Counted from the stretch's first letter, positions 1 through 46,814 are shown. The stretch is DNA of 46,814 bases from a virus (IMGVR_UViG_3300044824_000040:1-46814), one strand, 5' to 3'. Notes: a model not told the origin generated them from the sequence alone. Translations and numbers: made by a program.

Positions 1-127
1 AGATAACGTATGAAATGTTGCTGCTCGTGTATATTAGCACCGCGATCTGCGAGCTCTGCAGTTGAGGCCGAGCCGAATATATTTTTGGCTGACAGGTTAA
101 TTTCCATCCACCCACGCTCGGGAAGAC
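1..127. repeat. Terminal overlap, copy 1 (circular closure)
   Basis: These 127 bases are identical to the last 127 bases (46688-46814). The minus-strand PrimPol-helicase gene reads in frame through the join, so the two copies are one genomic segment. An exact length of 127 is the usual signature of an assembler closing a circular graph with k-mer 127. It is therefore more likely an assembly overlap than a biological terminal repeat. Confidence 0.95.
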
Positions 128-1364
128 GTTGCTTGAGAATGAGGTTAAACTCGCCTCGCACTTCGCCAGTTTGTACACAATCAAGAAAGATGGGATACCG
201 ACTAACAACAATATCGACAGCACCCCCAGTAGTGCCTGTTTTTGTGATAAGCGCGCCATCGGCCCTCCAGTAAAAATCATGCGGCAGTTGCGGCAGTTCA
301 CCTAGCTGATCTTGTGCTTGTCCTTTGAGCGACGCGCCGAAGATGTCGGTTTGAACGCTACTTTCCAGCGCTTCTTGTTCTTGTGCCCGACCCAACGAGA
401 TCGGGCTTTTGATCTTTTGCCAATGCGGACATGCTTCGCAAGTTTTCGGGTTGAGCGAGTGGAAGTGTTCGCAGGTACTAGCTCCCGTAAGCGATCGAAC
501 TCTTTCCAGTCGACTTTGAGTTTCTTCTCGAGTGTATCCTGAATATCCACTGGACCACTCATGAGCGAACTGCTCTCCGTCATCGCACCAAGCGAGGACT
601 CCAAGGCCGGCATACCAAAGTGGTTCCGGCAGACATCCATGAGAACTACGCATTCCTCCAAGCTGTCCACACGCACTTGCAATAGGCTCACTAAAGCGCG
701 GCTCGTCTGTAGAAGTATTTGCAAGCGCGAGTGCAAGACGCGGAGCTGTTCTTCGTGGTTCTGATCCATGTTCCAGCAGCCTCTTGAATGCTTCGATCGG
801 GTACGGCCCAACGAGCGGGCCGCAGACGACTTCCTTGTTCAGTCCGTTCTTTCGGTTGTGAGTTCCTGGAGCGCGTAGTATCGACGCAACGTCAGCCGTA
901 CGAGAGGGATCGGCCTCCAAGCCTTCCCTTTGACAAAGCACCTTAAGCCCTCGCGCGTATGATGCCCACGTAGCAGGGTCAAGTGCATCGACCAGGGGCC
1001 AATGAAGATAGATGCCATTACCCGATCCCACGTAGACCGGATCGGGGAGTCCTGTTCGCTTGCAGAACTCACTGGCGGCGCGAGCGGCATCAAAAGCGTC
1101 GGCATAGGGCTTGTCCTCTCCCGCATCTACGTCGAGCCAGAATTGCTTAACGCATCGCGCATTAGTTCCAAAACGGCGAGACGAATCCTTATATACCGCG
1201 CAAGCGTAGTAGGTCGTTTGACCACTTCGCGATGCTGCAAGCAGCGCAGTAGCCAGCTCATCCGTGTTTGTAAACCACTGATGTCTTTTTGTTTCTTTGA
1301 CGAACGCGACATACCATCCCTCATCGGGCAAGACGTGTTTGAGAAAGTCCACCGTTGAGGGCAT
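1..1364 (-). CDS. PrimPol-helicase, N-terminal part (continues at 46687 across the circle)
   Basis: This is the N-terminal half of a 936-residue protein that starts at ATG 1364 and runs through base 1 into the segment ending at 45241. Read by hand in this frame there is no stop from 1394 down to 1. The archaeo-eukaryotic primase (AEP/PrimPol) core is visible: metal-binding FWLDVDAG (Asp78, Asp80), SGNGIYLHW (114-122, His121) and RAPGTHNRK (164-172). A Cys-rich segment follows (Cys298, Cys309, Cys312, His314), then KIKSPISLG, as in phage primase-helicases. It probably primes or copies DNA at the phage fork. ATG 1364 is preferred over ATG 1382 because an AGGT lies 5 bases upstream. The start overlaps the preceding gene by 44 bases. 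Shorter ORFs on this strand at 302-811, 839-1126 and 1127-1324 lie out of frame and are shadows. Confidence 0.9.
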   Translation of the reverse strand, partial: MPSTVDFLKHVLPDEGWYVAFVKETKRHQWFTNTDELATALLAASRSGQTTYYACAVYKDSSRRFGTNARCVKQFWLDVDAGEDKPYADAFDAARAASEFCKRTGLPDPVYVGSGNGIYLHWPLVDALDPATWASYARGLKVLCQREGLEADPSRTADVASILRAPGTHNRKNGLNKEVVCGPLVGPYPIEAFKRLLEHGSEPRRTAPRLALALANTSTDEPRFSEPIASACGQLGGMRSSHGCLPEPLWYAGLGVLAWCDDGEQFAHEWSSGYSGYTREETQSRLERVRSLTGASTCEHFHSLNPKTCEACPHWQKIKSPISLGRAQEQEALESSVQTDIFGASLKGQAQDQLGELPQLPHDFYWRADGALITKTGTTGGAVDIVVSRYPIFLDCVQTGEVRGEFNLILKQRLPERGWMEINLSAKNIFGSASTAELADRGANIHEQQHFIRY

Positions 1365-5279: not shown

Positions 5280-5397
5280 CTAAGTTCGATCCACAGCCGT
5301 CGGATTACTTCTATCCAAGCACCTATCGCACCATCGCTTCCGGCGCGTAGGTGTCTCGATACTGAAATGGCTCGCCCTGTGGAAAAGCCAGCACCAT
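5276..5397 (-). pseudogene. Probable frameshifted small gene
   Basis: From ATG 5397 one frame reads MVLAFPQGEPFQYRDTYAPE and stops soon after. Another frame then reads WIEVIRRLWIELR and ends in a TGA that overlaps the next gene's ATG exactly as other genes of this operon do. A single indel around 5330 would join them. The end LWIELR also matches the last six residues of the VRR-NUC protein just upstream, which suggests a local duplication. It could be a sequencing error, a decayed gene or programmed frameshifting. Confidence 0.4.
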
Positions 5398-5412
5398 AGA
5401 GTCATGGCTTTC

Positions 5413-5691
5413 TCATCTCAACTCGATCCACAGCAGTTCTCCATCTCGCATGGTGACGAGGTATGTGACGGCGCCGGCCTTGCGCATCTCGCGCATCACC
5501 GCCGCTTGCCGAGGCGTCGGCTCCTCGATCCCTTCGCGCTTGCACTCGATAGCCGTGAAGCGCCCGTTCCAGCAAGCTAGGCAGTCAACGGTCTGCTTGC
5601 CGTAGCCTACGGGCACAGGCCAATACTGGTAGATGCCGAAGGCGGCGAGGTACTTCTTGACGGCAGCTTTTGTGCGGCCCTCGGGGGTCAT
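5413..5691 (-). CDS. VRR-NUC domain nuclease
   Basis: 92 residues, a stand-alone VRR-NUC (PD-(D/E)XK superfamily) as found in many phages. The fold starts with TKAAVKKYL. Catalytic pieces are TVDCLACWNG (Asp36) and FTAIECKRE (Glu49, Lys51), followed by PTPRQAAVMREM typical of the family. Relatives cleave branched structures such as Holliday junctions. Together with the PrimPol, polymerase and Cas4-like nuclease it would process replication intermediates before packaging. It starts with ATGA overlap to the 62-residue gene. Confidence 0.9.
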   Translation of the reverse strand: MTPEGRTKAAVKKYLAAFGIYQYWPVPVGYGKQTVDCLACWNGRFTAIECKREGIEEPTPRQAAVMREMRKAGAVTYLVTMRDGELLWIELR

Positions 5692-5876
5692 GGTCTACAC
5701 TCTCGCCAAATCAGCTCTACGCCTTGCATAGGCTTAGGCCAAACTTCCTCAGTGTGCTCGTGAACGTAGCAAGGCACGCCGCGTATATCTCTAACTTGCT
5801 TTTTAATCGCGTCAAAATCTTTGGCGCGGAGAATGCAAAGAGGAAAGTCGACACCTTTGTATCGCGCGATAATCAT
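5688..5876 (-). CDS. Hypothetical early protein
   Basis: 62 residues from ATG 5876, which overlaps the upstream stop by ATGA; the longer in-frame start at 5930 would intrude on the neighbour. Pattern MIIARYKGVDFPLC then VEHTEEVWPKP-like acidic/aromatic end suggests a small alpha/beta protein. No family recognised. It is coupled to the VRR-NUC gene by ATGA. Confidence 0.7.
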   Translation of the reverse strand: MIIARYKGVDFPLCILRAKDFDAIKKQVRDIRGVPCYVHEHTEEVWPKPMQGVELIWRECRP

Positions 5877-6103
5877 GCCTGCCCCGCTGCCTGCATAACC
5901 TGCAGTCCTTGAGCCGGCACGCCCTTGCACAGCATCATCGCTTTGATCTCGTCATGGACGATGTAGCCGAACTCGCCGAGCACAAAGCCCTCAAAGCGCG
6001 TCTGCATGACGAAATCCTGAAAGCGCGTGCCTGTCGCCAGCGGGAAGTCGAACCAGCGCACGGGCTCGCCTCTCAAAAACACGCGGACAAAGTTACTGTT
6101 CAT
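5873..6103 (-). CDS. Hypothetical early protein
   Basis: 76 residues from ATG 6103, chosen because AGGAGGGGGAG lies directly upstream and ATGA overlaps the nuclease stop. The sequence has beta-like aromatic strands (VRWFDFPL, FEGFVLGEFGYIV). No family recognised. Position between two nucleases suggests a DNA-processing accessory. Confidence 0.75.
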   Translation of the reverse strand: MNSNFVRVFLRGEPVRWFDFPLATGTRFQDFVMQTRFEGFVLGEFGYIVHDEIKAMMLCKGVPAQGLQVMQAAGQA

Positions 6104-6756
6104 CTCCCCCTCCTGTTGTGCGCGCAATCTAAAACCGGACACCACCCGCACAGCGGCCCCGGCGTCTTGTCGAACCGATTAGTCGCAATAGAGTGCTCGA
6201 TGTCGCCCATGATTGACTGCACCATCGCCCATGTCCTCGCCGTGTCGCTCAAGTCGTGCGGCTGGCCCTTCTGCCGCTCCTTGAGCCAGACGTAACAGCC
6301 CACGAGCTTCGTAATCTCAGGCCTATGCGCCTGGAGGAGCAGCGCGCCGATCTCCAGCTCGAACGGCTCCTCGCGCTTCTTCCCCGTTTTCCAATCCACG
6401 AGCACCGCGGCGTCGGTTGACAGCCGCACAGGCGCGTCGAGCACACCGCGCAGCCACACATCATCGTCCCAAAAACTCACTGGCCGGCCGCTCTTAGTCA
6501 TGCCTAGCTTCTGCTCGGGCTCGACGTGACAGGCGTCGAGCGGAGCGACCAGGGGCTCGAAGGCGAGCATGGCCTCGGGCAGTGGCGTCTTACTCCGTAC
6601 GCGCTTCTCCATCGCCCTGTGAACCTCGTTGCCGTAGCGCATCTCAGGCGTCTCGGGCTCTTTAGGCAAATCGCGGGCGATGTACATGCGGTAAGCCTGA
6701 TGCGGGCAGGTGGCCCACTTGTTGAACAGCGAAAATGAGGCGACTAAGCGTTTCAT
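6100..6756 (-). CDS. PD-(D/E)XK nuclease (Cas4/RecB-like)
   Basis: 218 residues, matching single-domain phage exonucleases of the PDDEXK_1 type. It opens with SFSLFNKWATCPHQAY, typical of RecB/Cas4 proteins, whose first Cys often binds an Fe-S cluster. Then GNEVHRAME (42-50), Asp107 in RGVLDAP and VLVDWKTGK (Asp121, Lys123) form the active site. The C-terminus CGWCPVLDC supplies three more cysteines, consistent with a 4Fe-4S cluster. The expected role is 5'-3' end resection for recombination or host DNA degradation. It overlaps both neighbours by ATGA. Confidence 0.92.
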   Translation of the reverse strand: MKRLVASFSLFNKWATCPHQAYRMYIARDLPKEPETPEMRYGNEVHRAMEKRVRSKTPLPEAMLAFEPLVAPLDACHVEPEQKLGMTKSGRPVSFWDDDVWLRGVLDAPVRLSTDAAVLVDWKTGKKREEPFELEIGALLLQAHRPEITKLVGCYVWLKERQKGQPHDLSDTARTWAMVQSIMGDIEHSIATNRFDKTPGPLCGWCPVLDCAHNRRGR

Positions 6757-10239: not shown

Positions 10240-10268
10240 AGATTAGTATAGGGTACTAAGGAAGTCAA
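10240..10268 (-). promoter_or_regulatory. Promoter-like site with TTAGTACCCTAT motif
   Basis: On the minus strand TTGACT (10268-10263), a 17-base spacer, then TAATCT (10245-10240). The spacer contains TTAGTACCCTATAC, the motif repeated in the divergent region at 11406, 11455 and 11579. It would drive the operon from the 9868-10212 gene onward, bypassing the two HNH genes. The -35 overlaps the end of the HNH gene. Confidence 0.5.
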
Positions 10269-10762
10269 GGCTTTCGCAAAAATAATTTTTCGAATTGCGG
10301 CAAAGGCTCAATAGCGCGATAGTCGTCTGTGCGCCGTAGATATGACGCAAGCCCCTCGAGGCGCTTTATTTCGTCGTACACTAGCCCGAGTGCCTGGTTG
10401 CAATTTCGGCATAGCATCCCGCGAATGCGTCCAGTCTTGTGGCAATGGTCGATAGCGCGCTCGCGCCCAAGCAGGTCAATAGGTGAGCGACAACCAGGAT
10501 TAGCGCACTTACCGCCTTGCGCGCGGTGCATCGCTTCAAGCTGTTCGAACGTAATTCCGTATTTTTCCTGAAACATTTTCCAATAGCGATCTAAAGTCGG
10601 CTTGCTTTTCGGCTTACGCTCCTTCCACTGCCACTGGCGGCGATTTTCAAGCGCAGTCACTAGCGCCACGCTGCGCTTGTACGACTCTTTGAAATATAGC
10701 TCTGGCAGCGGCGCTTCACGCAATAGCTTCTGCCCGAGCTCGACCAACGCAATCTTAATCAC
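10265..10762 (-). CDS. HNH endonuclease (endonuclease VII-like)
   Basis: 165 residues. The C-terminal domain has the treble-clef of the phage endonuclease VII/HNH family: CANPGC, RAIDHCHKTGRIRGMLC and RNCNQALG. The N-terminal half is basic and probably binds DNA (QWQWKERKPKSKP). Start GTG 10762 overlaps the stop of the next HNH gene (GTGA). The two neighbours are paralogues, probably a tandem duplication. They could be homing-type nickases or junction resolvases. Confidence 0.88.
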   Translation of the reverse strand: MIKIALVELGQKLLREAPLPELYFKESYKRSVALVTALENRRQWQWKERKPKSKPTLDRYWKMFQEKYGITFEQLEAMHRAQGGKCANPGCRSPIDLLGRERAIDHCHKTGRIRGMLCRNCNQALGLVYDEIKRLEGLASYLRRTDDYRAIEPLPQFEKLFLRKP

Positions 10763-11100
10763 AGTGGTTTCTCCAAATACGTGAGGAGGCCAGTGAGACG
10801 CTTAGGTTCACTATGTACTAAGGCAAGTGCTTGGCTACAGTTCCTGCACAGCATACCACGAACATTGCCGGCGTTGTCGTGATCCACCGCGCGAGTGCGG
10901 CCAGTGAGGGCGATAGGCACGCGACACGCTATATTAGCACATTTGCCGTCTTGCGCTCTGTGCAGACTGGTAATCTGGAGCATGGTCAGACCAGCTTTGC
11001 CGTATGTTGGCCAAATTTTGCGCTTGGCTTTTGACGGCTTAGGAGTGCGAGCGCGGCGTTTGACCTGCTCGGACCAGTCCTTTCGAGTGAAGTCAACCAC
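10759..11100 (-). CDS. HNH endonuclease (endonuclease VII-like), first early gene
   Basis: 113 residues, a shorter paralogue of the next gene: CANIAC, RAVDHDNAGNVRGMLC and RNCSQALALV. In place of DHCH the metal-site segment reads DHDN, so activity is uncertain. GTG 11100 has TAGGAGGG 7 bases before it. It is the promoter-proximal gene of the early operon. The shared block with the downstream HNH supports duplication followed by divergence. Confidence 0.86.
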   Translation of the reverse strand: MVDFTRKDWSEQVKRRARTPKPSKAKRKIWPTYGKAGLTMLQITSLHRAQDGKCANIACRVPIALTGRTRAVDHDNAGNVRGMLCRNCSQALALVHSEPKRLTGLLTYLEKPL

Positions 11101-39420: not shown

Positions 39421-42165
39421 ATGCCCGACGACTTCCAAAGCGTCGATGTGCCCGGCTACGGCACGTTTAATTTTCCCAAGTCGTTCACACGCGAGCAGAT
39501 GGCCCCTCTTATCGAAGGCCGGGTCAAGCAACTCGGACAACCACAGACCGGCCTCGCCCCGCAGCCCTCGCCCGAGACCGCCGGGCAGCATGGCAACCCG
39601 ATCCTTATTCAGAAGCAGAAGGGCTTTGTCGATACGGCGAAGGAGGAGGTCGGCAAGGGTGCCGAGCAGATGAAAAAGGCCGTGACCGAGCCCGGTATCA
39701 TGCCGACTGCCGTCCCGCAGCTTCTCAGCGGCTTCATGCAGATCGTCGGCGCCCCGATCACGGCGGCAGGCGCCAAGATCGAGGAGATGGCTCCGAGCTT
39801 AAAGACAGCGCAACAGCAAGGCCAACTCCTGCCACTTGAGTCGCCTGCCGATGTGATGGGAACGGCACTAAGTCTCGCCGGTGGACGCGTTGGTGCCGGT
39901 AAACCTCCCGCTGTACCGGAAGAATCATCGCTATTCCGCAAGCTCCTGTCGCCCGGCACAGTGTCGCCAGAGGCGCAGCGCGGACAGACGCTACTGCGCA
40001 CTGCGACCGGCACAGCGGCGCAAGACACGGCGCAGACGCAAGCCGCGCTGCGGCAGAGCGAGCGGCAAATCAACGCGCTGCAGCCGCAACAGCAGCTTGG
40101 CTTGCTCAATTATATCGAAACCCGCAGCCAGGGTGCGCGCGTGCCCGACCCGAAGCTGCAAGGCTTCGCCGACCAATTCCGCGATGCGATGAATTTGCGC
40201 AGGCAAAAGATCGAGGCAAGCCCGCGTACTCACAACGCGAACCTCCTCGAAGACTATGTGACCCACTACTGGACCGATCCAGTCAAGGCGCGCGTGTTTG
40301 TCAATAACTGGATGGGCAAGCAGGGCTCGTCACGGTCATTGAAAAAGCGTGTCATCCCGACGATTGCCGAAGGCATCCAGGCTGGTCTTCAGCCCGTCAC
40401 GACGAACCCGATCGACATCGCGCTTCGCTACACCGCCAGCATGGACCGCTACATCGCCATGAACGAGATGCTGGAAGCCGGCAAGCAAGCGGGCGACGTG
40501 AAATTTTTTAGCCCCGGCTCGAAGCACATACCGGAAGGATGGGTGCCGCTCGAAGGGCATATCCCGCAACGGCAAACGCCGGTCGGGCAGATGCAGGCTC
40601 ATGCGCCGGAGGATTGGGCGCGCATTTGGAACAACCATATCCATCAGGGCATTGGTGGCGACTGGCGCGATGCCTACAACGCCTTTCGACTAGCATCCAA
40701 TACGATCACACAGACTGTGCTCGGCTTCTCCGGCTTTCACCATATCGCGATGGCGAAGCACGCCATTCACTCCGAGTTCGCCCGTGCTCTTAGCCAGATC
40801 GTCGGCGGCGCTAAGACGGTCGCTAAGGGTGCCTGGAAGCGCGACGGCGCTGAGATCCTGCGCGGCGGCACGATGCTCGGCAAGGGCGTAGTAGGGCATG
40901 CGACGGCGCTCGCTGCCCCCATCACCCGCGCGTTCGGTACCGGTCGCAAGCTGCAGCAGGTCTATCTCGGCCGTGTGCCAGGCTCGCCCGACTTTCGGCG
41001 GCTCTCCAAGCTCTACGCCGAAGCAGGAGGCCGCGGCACTGGCAAGGCGCACGCGATCGACTACGAGTTTTCTCGCGCTGGCTCTTACTTCTCGGCATGG
41101 CGCCGCCGCTCGCTCAAGCACGAGATGCGGCAAGGCCTACGCGAGATTGGCGAAGCCAAGCGGCCAGTGCTCAAAGGCGCGCTGTTTGTCATCGACTCCA
41201 TCGGAAGGGTGATGGACAGCTTCACTGAGCCGCTGTTCAAGCACTACATTCCTCTCCTGAAAAACGGCATTTGGGCCGACACCATGCGAGCGTGGCTTGA
41301 AGCCAATCCGCATGCGTCCTACGACGAGCAGCTTGCGGTAGCGTCGAAGATCGTCGACTCGGTGGATAACCGTCTCGGTGAGATGATTAACGACAACATC
41401 ATGTGGAAGACGACGGCGAAGCAGGTCGCCTCGATCGGCATGCTGTCCTATTCTTGGAACATCGGCAAAATACGCGAGATCCTCGGCGGCATGCAGGCGG
41501 GAGCCAAGACCTTCGGCAAAGGGCTCGACATCGCTTCGGCTGACTATGATCCGCGCGTCGCCTACGTCGTCGCCTTTCCGATGGCTGTCGCAACGGTCAA
41601 CGCCATCTATCAATACCTGAAGACTGGCAAGCCGCCAGAGAGCCCGCACGATCTCATGGCCCCACGGACAGGTGGCATGGTGCCTGGCTCTGGGAAGCAG
41701 GGCAGGAGCACCCCGGTACCGGAGACTGCCCTTCTCCCTGGCGACGAGAAGGAGATTTTCGGGTGGTACAATATGCTTGCCGGCAATACCCCGATCTCGC
41801 AAGAAATATACAACAAGGCTAATCCACTCATCCGTACCGGCATCGACCTAATGCGCAAACAAGACTGGAAGGATCAGCCGTTTGTGCATCCCGACCCGAC
41901 CGCGCCGCAGTGGCTCAAGGACTACTTCGATCATGTCGTCGGCGGGGTCGATCCGATCAGCGTTCAGCGCTTCATGCAGGGCGAAAAGCGTGGCTCGCAC
42001 ATGAGCTGGCCTGAAGAAGCTCTAGGCATTCGGCAATCGCCGCAGTATGTTCAAGACCCGGAAGGTTACGAGCGCACCATGAAAGCCGTGCGTGAGCGCA
42101 AGTGGAAAGACAAGGAACGCGGCGAACGCAATCTACAGCGGCAGTACGGAGGACCACAGGAATGA
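39421..42165 (+). CDS. Large internal virion / ejection protein
   Basis: 914 residues. It begins MPDDFQSVDVPGYGTFNFPK. The first 60 residues resemble a virion-tip segment; 100-330 are helical; amphipathic or hydrophobic stretches occur near 700-730 (PRVAYVVAFPMAVATVNAIY). No hydrolase motif found. Its size and the order of three large proteins after the tail genes suggest a P22/T7-type channel-forming ejection protein. Ends with ATGA overlap to the next gene. Confidence 0.8.
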   Translation: MPDDFQSVDVPGYGTFNFPKSFTREQMAPLIEGRVKQLGQPQTGLAPQPSPETAGQHGNPILIQKQKGFVDTAKEEVGKGAEQMKKAVTEPGIMPTAVPQLLSGFMQIVGAPITAAGAKIEEMAPSLKTAQQQGQLLPLESPADVMGTALSLAGGRVGAGKPPAVPEESSLFRKLLSPGTVSPEAQRGQTLLRTATGTAAQDTAQTQAALRQSERQINALQPQQQLGLLNYIETRSQGARVPDPKLQGFADQFRDAMNLRRQKIEASPRTHNANLLEDYVTHYWTDPVKARVFVNNWMGKQGSSRSLKKRVIPTIAEGIQAGLQPVTTNPIDIALRYTASMDRYIAMNEMLEAGKQAGDVKFFSPGSKHIPEGWVPLEGHIPQRQTPVGQMQAHAPEDWARIWNNHIHQGIGGDWRDAYNAFRLASNTITQTVLGFSGFHHIAMAKHAIHSEFARALSQIVGGAKTVAKGAWKRDGAEILRGGTMLGKGVVGHATALAAPITRAFGTGRKLQQVYLGRVPGSPDFRRLSKLYAEAGGRGTGKAHAIDYEFSRAGSYFSAWRRRSLKHEMRQGLREIGEAKRPVLKGALFVIDSIGRVMDSFTEPLFKHYIPLLKNGIWADTMRAWLEANPHASYDEQLAVASKIVDSVDNRLGEMINDNIMWKTTAKQVASIGMLSYSWNIGKIREILGGMQAGAKTFGKGLDIASADYDPRVAYVVAFPMAVATVNAIYQYLKTGKPPESPHDLMAPRTGGMVPGSGKQGRSTPVPETALLPGDEKEIFGWYNMLAGNTPISQEIYNKANPLIRTGIDLMRKQDWKDQPFVHPDPTAPQWLKDYFDHVVGGVDPISVQRFMQGEKRGSHMSWPEEALGIRQSPQYVQDPEGYERTMKAVRERKWKDKERGERNLQRQYGGPQE

Positions 42166-42314
42166 AACGTAAAATGCAAAAATCGCCGAAGGCGCTACGC
42201 GGCGCCCTGAAGCAAACCGACACGCTGGCTGAAAAGCCGACGATGGGCAACCCAGGTGCAGTCAAGCGCGCTGGCAAAGCCCGCGAGAAACGATTGTTAA
42301 AAGCCAGTGTGTAA
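42162..42314 (+). CDS. Small basic protein
   Basis: 50 residues from ATG 42162 with ATGA overlap to the large virion gene; MKRKMQKSPKALRGALKQTD then KPTMGNPGAVKRAGKAREKR. Net charge strongly positive, probably disordered and nucleic-acid or peptide binding. First of two tiny genes before the ATP-grasp gene. Confidence 0.65.
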   Translation: MKRKMQKSPKALRGALKQTDTLAEKPTMGNPGAVKRAGKAREKRLLKASV

Positions 42315-42328
42315 CTATATAACACTGG
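42304..42328. repeat. 7-bp inverted repeat at end of 50-residue gene
   Basis: CCAGTGT (42304-42310) and ACACTGG (42322-42328) around GTAACTATATA. The inner AT-rich segment includes TGTAAC, one arm of the 11.2-11.3 kb operators. May be an operator or a weak hairpin; no T-run. Confidence 0.35.
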
Positions 42329-42396
42329 AAACTCTCCACGCTAATCAGCTTGTCATCATCGGCAAGCTGAACCAGCTTCTCAAACAGGAGGCCAAA

Positions 42397-42642
42397 ATGG
42401 CTATAGACCTCACTGCACTGACCGCCGAAGTCGCCAACAACACCACCGTTGACGCTTCGATCGAGCAACTTGTGACGAACCTCGTGGCGCAGATTGCCGC
42501 AATCTCGGCCGGCTCGACCGACGCCGCGACGCAGGCAGCGCTCAACGCGCTAACGACTACGCTGCAAGCCAACGACACCGCGATCGCCGCGGCAGTCACA
42601 GCCAACACCCCCGCAGCCACGCCGTCTGCAGCGAAAGCCTGA
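42397..42642 (+). CDS. Small Thr/Ala-rich protein before ATP-grasp gene
   Basis: 81 residues from ATG 42397 with AGGAGG 6 bases upstream; an in-frame GTG at 42307 would give 111 residues, adding LETLHANQLVIIGKLNQLLK. MAIDLTALTAEVANNTTVDA, then helical Ala/Thr repeats, ending SAAKA. Stop shares TGATG with the ATP-grasp start, so the two are co-translated. It may be a virion component or a substrate of the ligase; unproven. Confidence 0.65.
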   Translation: MAIDLTALTAEVANNTTVDASIEQLVTNLVAQIAAISAGSTDAATQAALNALTTTLQANDTAIAAAVTANTPAATPSAAKA

Positions 42643-43964
42643 TGAGACTACTGATCGTTGACCCGGAAGGGTCGAGCGGTCTTGACCTCGCCATCCGCGC
42701 TCAAAAAGACGGACACGAGGTCAAGCTCGCTATCAAGCCCAACGAAAAGGCCAAGCTGCGCGGCAAGGGCTTCGTCGAGGTCGTGCCCGACCCGCGCGAG
42801 TGGCTGCGCTGGTCGAACCTCGTCGTCGCCTGCGACAACTCAATTTATCTTCGCGACCTCGACGCGCACCGCGCCGCGGGCGGCAAGGTGATCGCCGCGT
42901 CGCAAGAAACCGCGCAGTGGGAGATCAACCGACAGGTCGGGCAGGAGATCCTGCGCAAAGCCGGCATCCCCGTCATCCCTGTGACCGAGTTCACGGATTA
43001 TGACACTGCGATACAATTCGTGAAGAAGCGCATGAAGCGCTACGTCTCCAAGCCTACCGGCGAGTTCGAGAAGGACAAGTCGCTATCCTACGTCTCCTCC
43101 GGGCCCGACGATATGGTGTTCATGCTGGAGCGCTGGAAGAAACTCAACAAGCTCAAGACGCCCTTTGTTCTGCAGGAGTTCGTCGCCGGAACCGAGATGG
43201 GCGTTGCCGGCTGGTTCGGCCCTGGCGGCTGGAACGAGGGCTTTGAGGAAAATTTCGAGTTCAAGAAGTTCATGAACGGCGATCTTGGCCCCGCAACCGG
43301 CGAGCAAGGCACCATCCTGCGCTACGTGCGGAGCTCCAAGCTCGCCCGCAAGATGCTGCTGCCGCTGACCAGCGTGCTTGAAAAGGTGGGCTATGTCGGC
43401 GATATTGATGTCAACTGCATCATCGACGACAAGGGTCACGCCTGGCCGCTTGAGTTCACGACACGGCTCGGCTGGCCGGCGTTCATGCTGCAGACGGCGC
43501 TGTGCCAAGGAGACGTAGCGCAATGGCTGATGGATCTGGCGAGTGGAGTGGATTCGCGCAGCATTCTGCTCGACAAAATCGCCTGCGGCGTCGTCATGTC
43601 CATACCGGACTATCCGTACTCGAAAATGACGGGCCGGGAAGTGGCGGGCATCCCGATCTACGGCTTGAAGGGCTCTTTGTGGCAGCACGTCCACCCGTGC
43701 GAGATGGCGATCCAGCCGGCGCCGATCACAGTGGACGGCAATATAGTCAGCACCCCGCAGCCAGTAACGGCGGGGGACTACGTGCTGGTGATGACGGCGA
43801 TAGCGGACACGGTGAAGGACGCGGCTTTGACGTGCTACCGTCGCTTGGAGCGCTTGACAGTGCCCAACAGTCCTCAATGGCGTACGGACATTGGTAAAAA
43901 ATTAGCAAAACAACTTCCGAAGATTCAAGCACACGGCTACGCTATAGATCTGCAGTACGGCTAG
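42642..43964 (+). CDS. PurD-like ATP-grasp ligase
   Basis: 440 residues, the length of PurD (glycinamide ribonucleotide synthetase). N-terminal Rossmann-like start MRLLIVDPEGSSGLDLAIRA; ATP-grasp core RYVSKPTGEF (Lys137), VLQEFVAGTEMGVAGWFGPG (178-195), GDIDVNCI and PLEFTTRLGWP (Glu271, Arg275) for Mg-ATP. PurD ligates glycine to phosphoribosylamine; here no other purine gene is present and the gene ends the late operon. It might ligate an amino acid to a protein, peptide or DNA. Stop CTAG overlaps the antisense HNH stop. Confidence 0.85.
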   Translation: MRLLIVDPEGSSGLDLAIRAQKDGHEVKLAIKPNEKAKLRGKGFVEVVPDPREWLRWSNLVVACDNSIYLRDLDAHRAAGGKVIAASQETAQWEINRQVGQEILRKAGIPVIPVTEFTDYDTAIQFVKKRMKRYVSKPTGEFEKDKSLSYVSSGPDDMVFMLERWKKLNKLKTPFVLQEFVAGTEMGVAGWFGPGGWNEGFEENFEFKKFMNGDLGPATGEQGTILRYVRSSKLARKMLLPLTSVLEKVGYVGDIDVNCIIDDKGHAWPLEFTTRLGWPAFMLQTALCQGDVAQWLMDLASGVDSRSILLDKIACGVVMSIPDYPYSKMTGREVAGIPIYGLKGSLWQHVHPCEMAIQPAPITVDGNIVSTPQPVTAGDYVLVMTAIADTVKDAALTCYRRLERLTVPNSPQWRTDIGKKLAKQLPKIQAHGYAIDLQYG

Positions 43965-44365
43965 TTGCGCATATAGGCAACAATTTTTTCAAATTCTTCA
44001 AGCGTTCCATCACGTTTAAGCATATTTGCACGCCATGAAATGACGCGCACATTTCCTTTAACGTACCCTAATTTATTGTCGAAGCGGTCTAAAGAAGGCG
44101 CTGTAGGCACGCGTTTGCCTTTTACACCTACCAGTTTAAGACCGAGCACAGGACAGTGTGTAGGAATCATGATGTCCGCAACCGTTATGTTAAAGGCAAG
44201 TCCTGCAGACTTAGCACGCATCTGCGCAAGATTGTTTTTGCGCCATTCAGTATTTTTCGCTAGGTAGCGCTTTCTATTTCTCTGATAGTCGTCGGCATGC
44301 TGAAGCTTGAGACGCGCGCTGTTTGTTTTTCGATACTGTTTTTGGTATTCTGGATCGTAAACCAT
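43961..44365 (-). CDS. HNH-like homing endonuclease, antisense
   Basis: 134 residues. Basic N-terminal helix (YQKQYRKTNSARLKLQHADD), then THCPVLGLKL and APSLDRFDNKLGYVKGNVRV with ISWRANMLKRDG, the pattern of phage HNH proteins whose catalytic loop is PSLDRxxxxxGYxxGNVxxIS. It lies antisense and its stop shares the CTAG palindrome with the ligase stop. It resembles a selfish insertion after a conserved gene. Confidence 0.8.
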   Translation of the reverse strand: MVYDPEYQKQYRKTNSARLKLQHADDYQRNRKRYLAKNTEWRKNNLAQMRAKSAGLAFNITVADIMIPTHCPVLGLKLVGVKGKRVPTAPSLDRFDNKLGYVKGNVRVISWRANMLKRDGTLEEFEKIVAYMRN

Positions 44366-44379
44366 AGGAGTGAACCCCC

Positions 44380-44829
44380 GTGGACCTTTTTGAAAGGCTT
44401 GCTGCCCAACATCTCACAAAAAATGAGGATGTCAAGCAGGAAATAAAGCTTGAAAGTCTAGATACTGTTGAAATACCCGCTGGTTCTTTGCAAGAAACTA
44501 AGGCGCTTGTCGAACCATATCCGCAACCGCGCGACGAACCTAATGTACTCGCAGGAAGGATAAAGGACGGTGCCGATCGCGGCGCCGACAAGCTCCTCGA
44601 ACTGCTCAAGCTCGCCGTCGACCGGGGTAGCTACGAGAGCGAGGAAGGTTGGCTTGCCGCCCTGCGCGTTCTCTCCGGCGCGGTGCAGACAGCGCTCAAC
44701 ACGCAGCTTCGCGTCGACGAGGGCGTGATGCAGCAGCAGCGGTTCGACCGTCTACCGGAACTCTTGAAGATCATCAAGGATGAGGAGAAGCGGTTGCCGA
44801 TGAAGCTGGTTGAGGCAGTGATTCATTGA
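44380..44829 (+). CDS. Last late gene; possible small terminase or hypothetical
   Basis: 149 residues from GTG 44380 (AGGAG 9 bases upstream). Acidic N-terminal half, then helical LLELLKLAVDRGSYESEEGW, QTALNTQLRVDEG and LPELLKIIKDEEKR. No HTH visible. It converges on the early operon and overlaps the gene 44774-45001 by 56 bases tail to tail. Role unclear: TerS is one possibility, a replication gene of the late set another. Confidence 0.65.
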   Translation: MDLFERLAAQHLTKNEDVKQEIKLESLDTVEIPAGSLQETKALVEPYPQPRDEPNVLAGRIKDGADRGADKLLELLKLAVDRGSYESEEGWLAALRVLSGAVQTALNTQLRVDEGVMQQQRFDRLPELLKIIKDEEKRLPMKLVEAVIH

Positions 44830-45240: not shown

Positions 45241-46814
45241 TCAAAGTGAAACTCTCTGCTGCATCGGCACGACATTCTCGGCTTTCGGCAGAACAGTACC
45301 GGAGATCGCCTCGTGCGCCGTGTTGATCTCTACGCACCACACCTGCCCTCCGGGGATGTCGGTGCCGGCTCCTAGCGTCGCCTGCATGCGCTTTCGCGTC
45401 ACGATGCCCTGCGCCTCCAGTGCCCGCAGCATCTCCTGGTAGCCAAGCTCGCGCTTGACCAGCCACTCGCGCAGTGCCGTCGACGCAATCAGGCAACGGC
45501 TGTTGTTGACCTCAAAGCGCATCGAGAGCCGATGCCCGCGGAACTCCTGCAGCGGGCGCTGCTTGTGACCGGGGACGTAGGCGGTAGTCATAATCAGCGC
45601 GTCGTGGATATTGTCGTTTAAGAACTCAGCCAGTGCGGGCATGGCCCACTCGCGGACGTGCTGTGTATCACGCGCCCCCATCGCCTCAAAGAGCCAAGCC
45701 ATGATGCGCTCGACGGAGAACTCGACAAGCCCAAGCTGCTTGACGATCACGCCGGCAACGGCAATGGCTGCAAGCGTACGAACCCAAAAGCGGTGTTCTG
45801 ACCTGAATCCCGTCCGGTCCCAGGTCTGCTGCGTGACCTGCTGCAGTGTCGCTTTCGTCCAAGCGAGATTGCCCGGCTGCACTAGCCATTCGAGGAACGC
45901 CTTTCCTGCATGACCTGAGTTGTTGCGCAACCCCTTGCGCAGCCGGTCGCCCTGCTCGTAGCCCTTGGGGATATCAAGTGAGAACTCCATGATGCGGTAG
46001 GCTGGCGCCTCGGGGTTGTTTTGCACCGACAGCGCGTCGACAAGCGAGGAGTTGGCGGCCGAGATCAGAATGGTCTGCCACGTCGAGGCCGTATGGTGGA
46101 TGGCGCCAGCGCGGGTCGCGCGCATCTTGTCGCGACCGTTGGTGAAGTTGACGACGAACTGGCGGATGGCCTCGGGGTCGCGCAGCGTTATTTCGTCGTA
46201 GACGACGGGGAGGTTGCCGAGCGCGCCGAGCGTGAGCGCTTTTGAGACTTTCGTGTCTTCGTTGGTGAGCCCGAGCCCTTCTCGTCGTCCCCATACGGAA
46301 GCCGCACCAATAAGCGCCGTAGATTTTCCTGTGCCAGACTCACGGGTGACAAGATGGATAATCGCTCCTCCCTCGTCACGCTCTTGGAATCGCATAAGAG
46401 GCGCTGCAAAACTTGCGAGTAGCGCGACAGACTGAGGCTCACATCCTGCAGCAAATAGCGCGTTGACAGCCTGTTTCCATCCTTCAAGATCGCCTCCCTT
46501 GCATGGTCCTACCCAATCTTCCTTGCAGCGCACCTGCAGCTCGTCGTTGCCCATGACGCGCGTCACACCAGCGGGGCCATAGAGATCGAGCCCGTAGAGA
46601 AAGGCCGTGTCGTTATCCTTCCAGCCGAACTGGTCGTAGCGCATGGTCAGTTTGTTGGCTCCGTAGAATAGGTCGATGGCGCCTCGCAGATAACGTATGA
46701 AATGTTGCTGCTCGTGTATATTAGCACCGCGATCTGCGAGCTCTGCAGTTGAGGCCGAGCCGAATATATTTTTGGCTGACAGGTTAATTTCCATCCACCC
46801 ACGCTCGGGAAGAC
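45241..46814 (-). CDS. PrimPol-helicase, C-terminal part (SF3/DUF927-like ATPase)
   Basis: Residues 413-936 of the PrimPol-helicase; the N-terminal part is at 1-1364. This half is a DUF927-like hexameric helicase ATPase. Walker A is RESGTGKST (Lys577), Walker B is VVYDEIT (Asp619-Glu620), and sensor Asn lies in SAANSS. The arginine-finger region is near YRIMEF and a winged-helix-like C-terminus follows. A primase fused to a helicase can unwind and prime the phage origin without host DnaB/DnaG, which fits with the phage polymerase in the same operon. The Met at 46794 is internal, not the start. It is followed after 9 bases by the small gene at 44998-45231. Confidence 0.92.
   Translation of the reverse strand, partial: LPERGWMEINLSAKNIFGSASTAELADRGANIHEQQHFIRYLRGAIDLFYGANKLTMRYDQFGWKDNDTAFLYGLDLYGPAGVTRVMGNDELQVRCKEDWVGPCKGGDLEGWKQAVNALFAAGCEPQSVALLASFAAPLMRFQERDEGGAIIHLVTRESGTGKSTALIGAASVWGRREGLGLTNEDTKVSKALTLGALGNLPVVYDEITLRDPEAIRQFVVNFTNGRDKMRATRAGAIHHTASTWQTILISAANSSLVDALSVQNNPEAPAYRIMEFSLDIPKGYEQGDRLRKGLRNNSGHAGKAFLEWLVQPGNLAWTKATLQQVTQQTWDRTGFRSEHRFWVRTLAAIAVAGVIVKQLGLVEFSVERIMAWLFEAMGARDTQHVREWAMPALAEFLNDNIHDALIMTTAYVPGHKQRPLQEFRGHRLSMRFEVNNSRCLIASTALREWLVKRELGYQEMLRALEAQGIVTRKRMQATLGAGTDIPGGQVWCVEINTAHEAISGTVLPKAENVVPMQQRVSL
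46688..46814. repeat. Terminal overlap, copy 2 (circular closure)
   Basis: Exact second copy of bases 1-127. Removing it gives a 46687-bp circle, which could be a circularly permuted headful-packaged genome or one whose true ends were lost in assembly. Confidence 0.95.

Follow-up and report, generated by a model that had tools for sequence, protein, structure and literature searches.

What does a phage do with an enzyme that looks like a purine-synthesis enzyme? The viral DNA analysed here (46,814 nucleotides, referred to as the window) encodes an ATP-grasp ligase resembling PurD (GAR synthetase) directly behind two very small genes. An earlier note, made from the sequence of this DNA, had described an intact ligase unaccompanied by other purine genes, and had suggested that it may join an amine to a carboxyl group, possibly on a virion protein, a peptide or DNA, with the small proteins as its substrate or partner. 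A literature search found no published description of the ligase family.

Organization of the ligase locus

The features discussed in this work are as follows.

39421-42165, plus strand: large virion protein of the ejection type, 914 aa, so assigned from its position and its Paraburkholderia prophage counterpart; most loci have a relative of this gene 5' of the ligase
42145-42162, plus strand: codons of the C-terminal tail of the 914-aa protein, Y-G-G-P-Q-E, which partly double as a Shine-Dalgarno sequence (GGAGG)
42162-42314, plus strand: basic protein, 50 aa, known only from the two nearest relatives
42397-42642, plus strand: Ala/Thr-rich protein, 81 aa, with a possible start as far upstream as GTG 42307; not conserved alongside the ligase
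42642-43964, plus strand: PurD-derived ATP-grasp ligase, 440 aa (TIGR00877, AlphaFold2, Foldseek, residue census)
43961-44365, minus strand: HNH/endonuclease-VII-like gene, convergent, behind the ligase (phrog_3322, E 9e-31)
44380-44829, plus strand: 149-aa protein, whose homologue lies directly 3' of the ejection gene in ligase-less relatives (locus comparison)
45241-46794, minus strand: 3' part of a DUF927 primase/helicase gene, whose 5' part lies at 3-1364, minus strand

The three open reading frames described in the earlier note (42162-42314, 42397-42642 and 42642-43964) are all present, as is the TGATG overlap between the 81-aa gene and the ligase gene, at 42640-42644. Moreover, the gene of the 914-aa protein overlaps that of the 50-aa protein in an ATGA, so that the virion protein, the two small proteins and the ligase are encoded in one operon. 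In the window, the ligase gene lacks a good Shine-Dalgarno sequence, so its translation may depend on coupling. Its start at 42642 is supported by its relatives, nearly all of which start at the corresponding residue, with M[RK]-x-L-x-I-D. The ATG of the Ala/Thr-rich protein at 42397 is preceded by a strong AGGAGG (42386-42391); the frame continues upstream without a stop as far as GTG 42307, and residues of this stretch are conserved in homologues (KLNQLL.KEA.MA). The protein may be 81 or up to 111 aa long.

The two parts of the DUF927 gene both match a single protein of the related locus L001. The gene is split between the ends of the window, which thus very probably represents a complete phage genome in circularly permuted form. 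In addition to the HNH gene behind the ligase, two tandem endonuclease-VII-like genes are found at 10265-11100 (minus strand).

A complete PurD fold without the PurD signatures

In a search of NCBIfam, the sole match of the ligase is purD (TIGR00877), with 59.1 bits against a curated cut-off of 288. The Pfam families GARS_A and GARS_C also match below cut-off, and no PHROG matches. In the PDB, every match found by sequence is a GAR synthetase. The same is true of structure: an AlphaFold2 model built from 45 relatives has a mean pLDDT of 93.2, and its best 15 PDB matches in Foldseek are all GAR synthetases (TM 0.69-0.75, approx. 20% identity). The predicted model contains the N, ATP-grasp and C domains of the PurD fold, which bears out the description of the 440-aa product as an intact PurD-like ligase. 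Among viral structures, BFVD holds no full-length match, and the viral library gave only partial ATP-grasp matches (best TM on the query, 0.45). The dN/dS values of the ligase family (0.02-0.29) indicate purifying selection; together with hundreds of relatives, they place the open reading frame far beyond chance.

The residues tell how far the ligase has diverged. Forty-five family members were aligned with 30 bacterial PurDs and with the PurD of a gut-phage fragment, and the roles of residues in binding ATP, Mg and glycine were taken from Yamamoto et al. 2022 (PMC8880213). Among the 30 PurDs, which all come from one phylum, 91 columns are invariant. At least 90% of ligase-family members share the PurD residue in 24 of these columns, and fewer than 10% do so in 47; the PurD of the gut-phage fragment keeps 88. 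In particular, the family has lost the GGREHA loop of the N domain, of which the R, E, H or A is kept in none of the 45 members, as well as GPE, the K-G loop and the end of GPNTGGMGAYSPAP, where five residues are deleted after GPNTGGMGA. The Asn of EFN.R.GDPE, a Mg ligand, is replaced by Thr (T273) in all 45 members, and the DPE that helps to hold glycine is lost. The fragment itself (L019, MT839088.1) derives from a human-gut 'phage'; with its 88 retained residues, the enzyme encoded at positions 5325-6602 looks like a true PurD, either as a real auxiliary gene or because the contig is bacterial.

The ligase retains E94, K137, E185, K208, E271, R275 and R414-D416-I417. Relative to Aquifex PurD, E100, K143, E192, K214 and R287 correspond to E94, K137, E185, K208 and R275, while K103 and D212 are conservatively changed to R97 and E206. 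Residue E185 in Aquifex numbering has become Q178, and E292 is lost; the glycine site of PurD (D212, R287 and E292; PMC8880213) is therefore not intact, being represented by E206, R275 and a missing residue. K137, E185, K208, E271 and R275 are invariant in the 45 members, so that the lysines, acidic residues and fold expected of an ATP-grasp enzyme are found, with T273 as the exception. In the strand that bears an acidic Mg ligand in other ATP-grasp enzymes, the ligase has D256. The altered N domain bears invariant residues of its own across members that are 42-78% identical to the window ligase, and the family forms one clade apart from the 30 PurDs (SH-aLRT 100).

These data bear on two alternative functions. 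The ligase could be an ordinary auxiliary metabolic gene, i.e., a functional GAR synthetase that increases purine synthesis in the infected cell. Virome surveys have reported viral purD, purD-like or GART genes as auxiliary genes of purine metabolism (PMC11360552, PMC11097641, PMC12043954), and the ligase keeps the PurD fold and the C-terminal RxDIG. However, the low TIGR00877 score, the complete loss of the GGREHA residues and the loss of 47 invariant residues, against 88 kept by the true PurD of the gut-phage fragment, make this function unlikely. Moreover, a scan of window proteins revealed no further purine gene, in line with the earlier note, and a Paraburkholderia host that carries a relative of the ligase has a PurD of its own. 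A PurD-like protein without catalytic activity, serving as a scaffold or for binding, is slightly less probable again: the replacement of the Mg-binding Asn by Thr and of Lys by R97 would fit it, but the five invariant residues named above, which include listed binders of ATP and carboxylate, and the strong purifying selection argue against it.

The two small genes are not conserved with the ligase

The TGATG coupling, the order of genes in the operon and the poor Shine-Dalgarno sequence of the ligase gene in the window would all suit the proposal that the 50- and 81-aa proteins are substrates or partners of the ligase. The relatives speak against it. In 39 of 83 ligase loci (not de-duplicated), the ligase starts within 20 nt of the stop codon of the large virion gene, usually with a 4-nt overlap, which leaves no room for small genes. 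The 50-aa gene is limited to the two nearest relatives; phmmer detects the protein in L026 (E 7e-10) and weakly in L001/L021, and a pattern search of IMG/VR found none. The Ala/Thr-rich protein has no homologue in ligase loci and 42 homologues in other phages, where none of the 42 loci has a ligase, a window-type primase or a window-type ejection protein nearby. Other small genes, unrelated to these, fill the slot before the ligase in L026 (a CxxCxxCC protein) and L027 (a weakly HiPIP-like protein). Since the small genes are absent or replaced in ligase-bearing relatives, the trio is not a conserved unit; as a conserved system it is refuted, and a role of the two proteins as substrate or partner is extremely improbable. 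The Ala/Thr-rich protein (window 42307-42642; L281-L322) belongs to a common family of small phage proteins with a conserved N-terminal extension.

The upstream virion protein and its C-terminal tail

The 914-aa protein itself matches no Pfam or PHROG family; in the Paraburkholderia prophage, the corresponding protein matches phrog_26400, a PHROG for DNA ejection (E 8e-27). The virion proteins upstream of the ligase fall into several groups without mutual BLAST similarity. The tail Y-x-G-x-x-E/Q ends 29 of 60 representative neighbours of the ligase, compared with 5 of 1050 other proteins of the same loci. Two of these five are copies of the large upstream gene cut off at a contig end, and a third is a small open reading frame next to it. 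Among others, the tail is seen in the window and in L024, L026, L028, L041, L063, L070, L097, L151 and L160; it is nearly unique to the ejection-type protein in each genome, whether a ligase is present or not. An embedded Shine-Dalgarno sequence was considered as the whole cause of the tail and rejected, because GGC, GGT or GGG often serve as the G-G codons, and variants with CAG-GGA also exist; it contributes in some genomes, including the window. The tail is a genuine feature of the virion proteins and could serve as a tag for packaging or assembly.

A further possibility is that the ligase modifies the C-terminus (Y-x-G-x-x-E/Q-COOH) of the adjoining ejection-type protein, as RimK and tubulin-tyrosine ligase do with their substrates. 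The two genes adjoin and often overlap, the tail is concentrated on ligase neighbours and shared by proteins without mutual BLAST similarity, and many of its codons are not Shine-Dalgarno-like; this candidate looked strong until ligase-less relatives were examined. Among family-A proteins, the tail occurs in 6 of 9 from ligase-less phages and 21 of 45 from ligase-bearing ones, and four of the ligase-less carriers are contigs of 45-47 kb with no ligase anywhere. Many ligase phages, moreover, lack the tail. Because it is equally common without the ligase, the tail does not track it, and we consider such a modification very unlikely, more so than either of the functions weighed above.

Distribution and inheritance of the ligase

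In viral contigs, an alignment search recovered at least 552 relatives of the ligase, whereas a pattern-limited search of 84,980 bacterial and archaeal species genomes found relatives on only six contigs; judged by these searches, the family is phage-specific. One of the six, of 90,494 bases (L104), is from Paraburkholderia phenoliruptrix LMG 22037 and contains a prophage flanked by chromosomal-looking genes. Its ligase is 44% identical to that of the window and lies directly behind a DNA-ejection-protein gene; the host genome also bears a normal full PurD (573 bits).

On a tree of the neighbouring primase, which over-samples ligase-bearing loci because many were found via the ligase, the presence of the ligase requires 4 changes, compared with 12.7 when shuffled, and none of 500 shuffles was as low. 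Thus, the ligase is stably inherited with the phage lineage in a large clade of environmental phages. The ligase is missing altogether from nine related contigs of 40-47 kb. In several relatives without it, the next gene after that of the ejection protein encodes a homologue (126-140 aa) of the 149-aa protein, which places the ligase between genes that are neighbours elsewhere. An apparently opposite pattern of presence of the 149-aa gene and the ligase is probably an artefact of overlapping open reading frames, as homologues stand behind the ligase in L001, L002, L003, L014 and L015. No partner gene co-segregates with the ligase among 19 near-complete genomes (13 ligase-bearing and 6 ligase-less). 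In L018 (MW202796.1, positions 1988-2233), a tail-region protein is annotated 'ubiquitin', and it has no Pfam match.

Proposed function

We propose that the ligase is a phage-specific ATP-grasp amide ligase that descends from PurD and has acquired a substrate other than that of GAR synthesis, and we consider this the probable function. The enzyme probably binds Mg-ATP; to judge from the retained residues, it would phosphorylate a carboxylate to an acyl phosphate and then pass the acyl group to an amine, so that the amine-carboxyl ligation suggested previously fits. As the PRA-side motif of the N domain and the site of the glycine amine have been rebuilt, the product is probably not GAR. The score below the PurD cut-off and the lost signatures likewise point to a ligase that is probably not making purines. 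However, GAR synthesis by an atypical PurD whose motifs have shifted is possible in principle, and the change of the Mg ligand from Asn to Thr could mean weak or absent catalysis, although D256 lies in a strand where other ATP-grasp enzymes have an acidic ligand.

The acceptor of this changed ligase would be one common molecule, i.e., a host metabolite, a conserved host factor or a conserved viral component, which is more likely than the adjoining small proteins, since the invariant residues of the N domain are conserved while the neighbouring virion proteins belong to groups unrelated by BLAST. The carboxylate and the amine would be ones found across many hosts or phages, and a virion protein may serve as substrate in some way other than through the tail of the neighbouring protein. 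DNA, which the earlier note had also listed, is disfavoured as a substrate, since a scan of window proteins revealed no gene for base modification. The position of the gene inside a structural operon suggests that the enzyme probably acts late in infection.

Comparison with known systems and significance

The ligase shares with PurD (TIGR00877; PDB 2yw2, 5vev and 1gso) the whole-length fold, the ATP-grasp lysines and glutamates, the carboxylate-binding Arg and RxDIG. It differs in being only approx. 20% identical, in lacking the signature motifs for PRA and glycine, and in belonging to a phage-only clade with invariant W, H and N residues of its own. Amine-carboxyl ligases of unknown substrate are also encoded by LUZ24-like and OM43 phages, as sets of amidoligase, GATase and ATP-grasp genes (PMC3890496, PMC10580990). 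Those sets comprise several genes in the early or replication part of the genome, with small ATP-grasp proteins, whereas the window has a single PurD-type gene in a structural operon and no amidoligase or GATase among its scanned proteins. The phage R2K ligases (ATP-grasp peptide ligases), for which a role in modifying host proteins has been proposed (PMC4431377, PMC7824862), belong to a different ATP-grasp clade, while the window ligase has the N and C domains of PurD. Both groups are functional analogues and not family relatives. RimK and tubulin-tyrosine ligase, which add amino acids to C-termini, were considered because of the conserved tail of the neighbouring protein; they share ATP-grasp chemistry, but the ligase shows no membership of these families by sequence, and the tail does not follow it.

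The prophage in the cultured P. phenoliruptrix LMG 22037 makes the function of the ligase testable. It is conceivable, and we put it forward tentatively, that a very common clade of uncultured phages uses an undescribed amide-ligation reaction, derived from purine synthesis, late in infection on a conserved host or virion molecule. Stable inheritance of the gene in a large clade, together with its near lack of annotated relatives, suggests that the reaction is likely important to the phages. These findings suggest, on sequence grounds, that a large phage-only family of PurD-like enzymes without the substrate signatures of PurD probably does something else.
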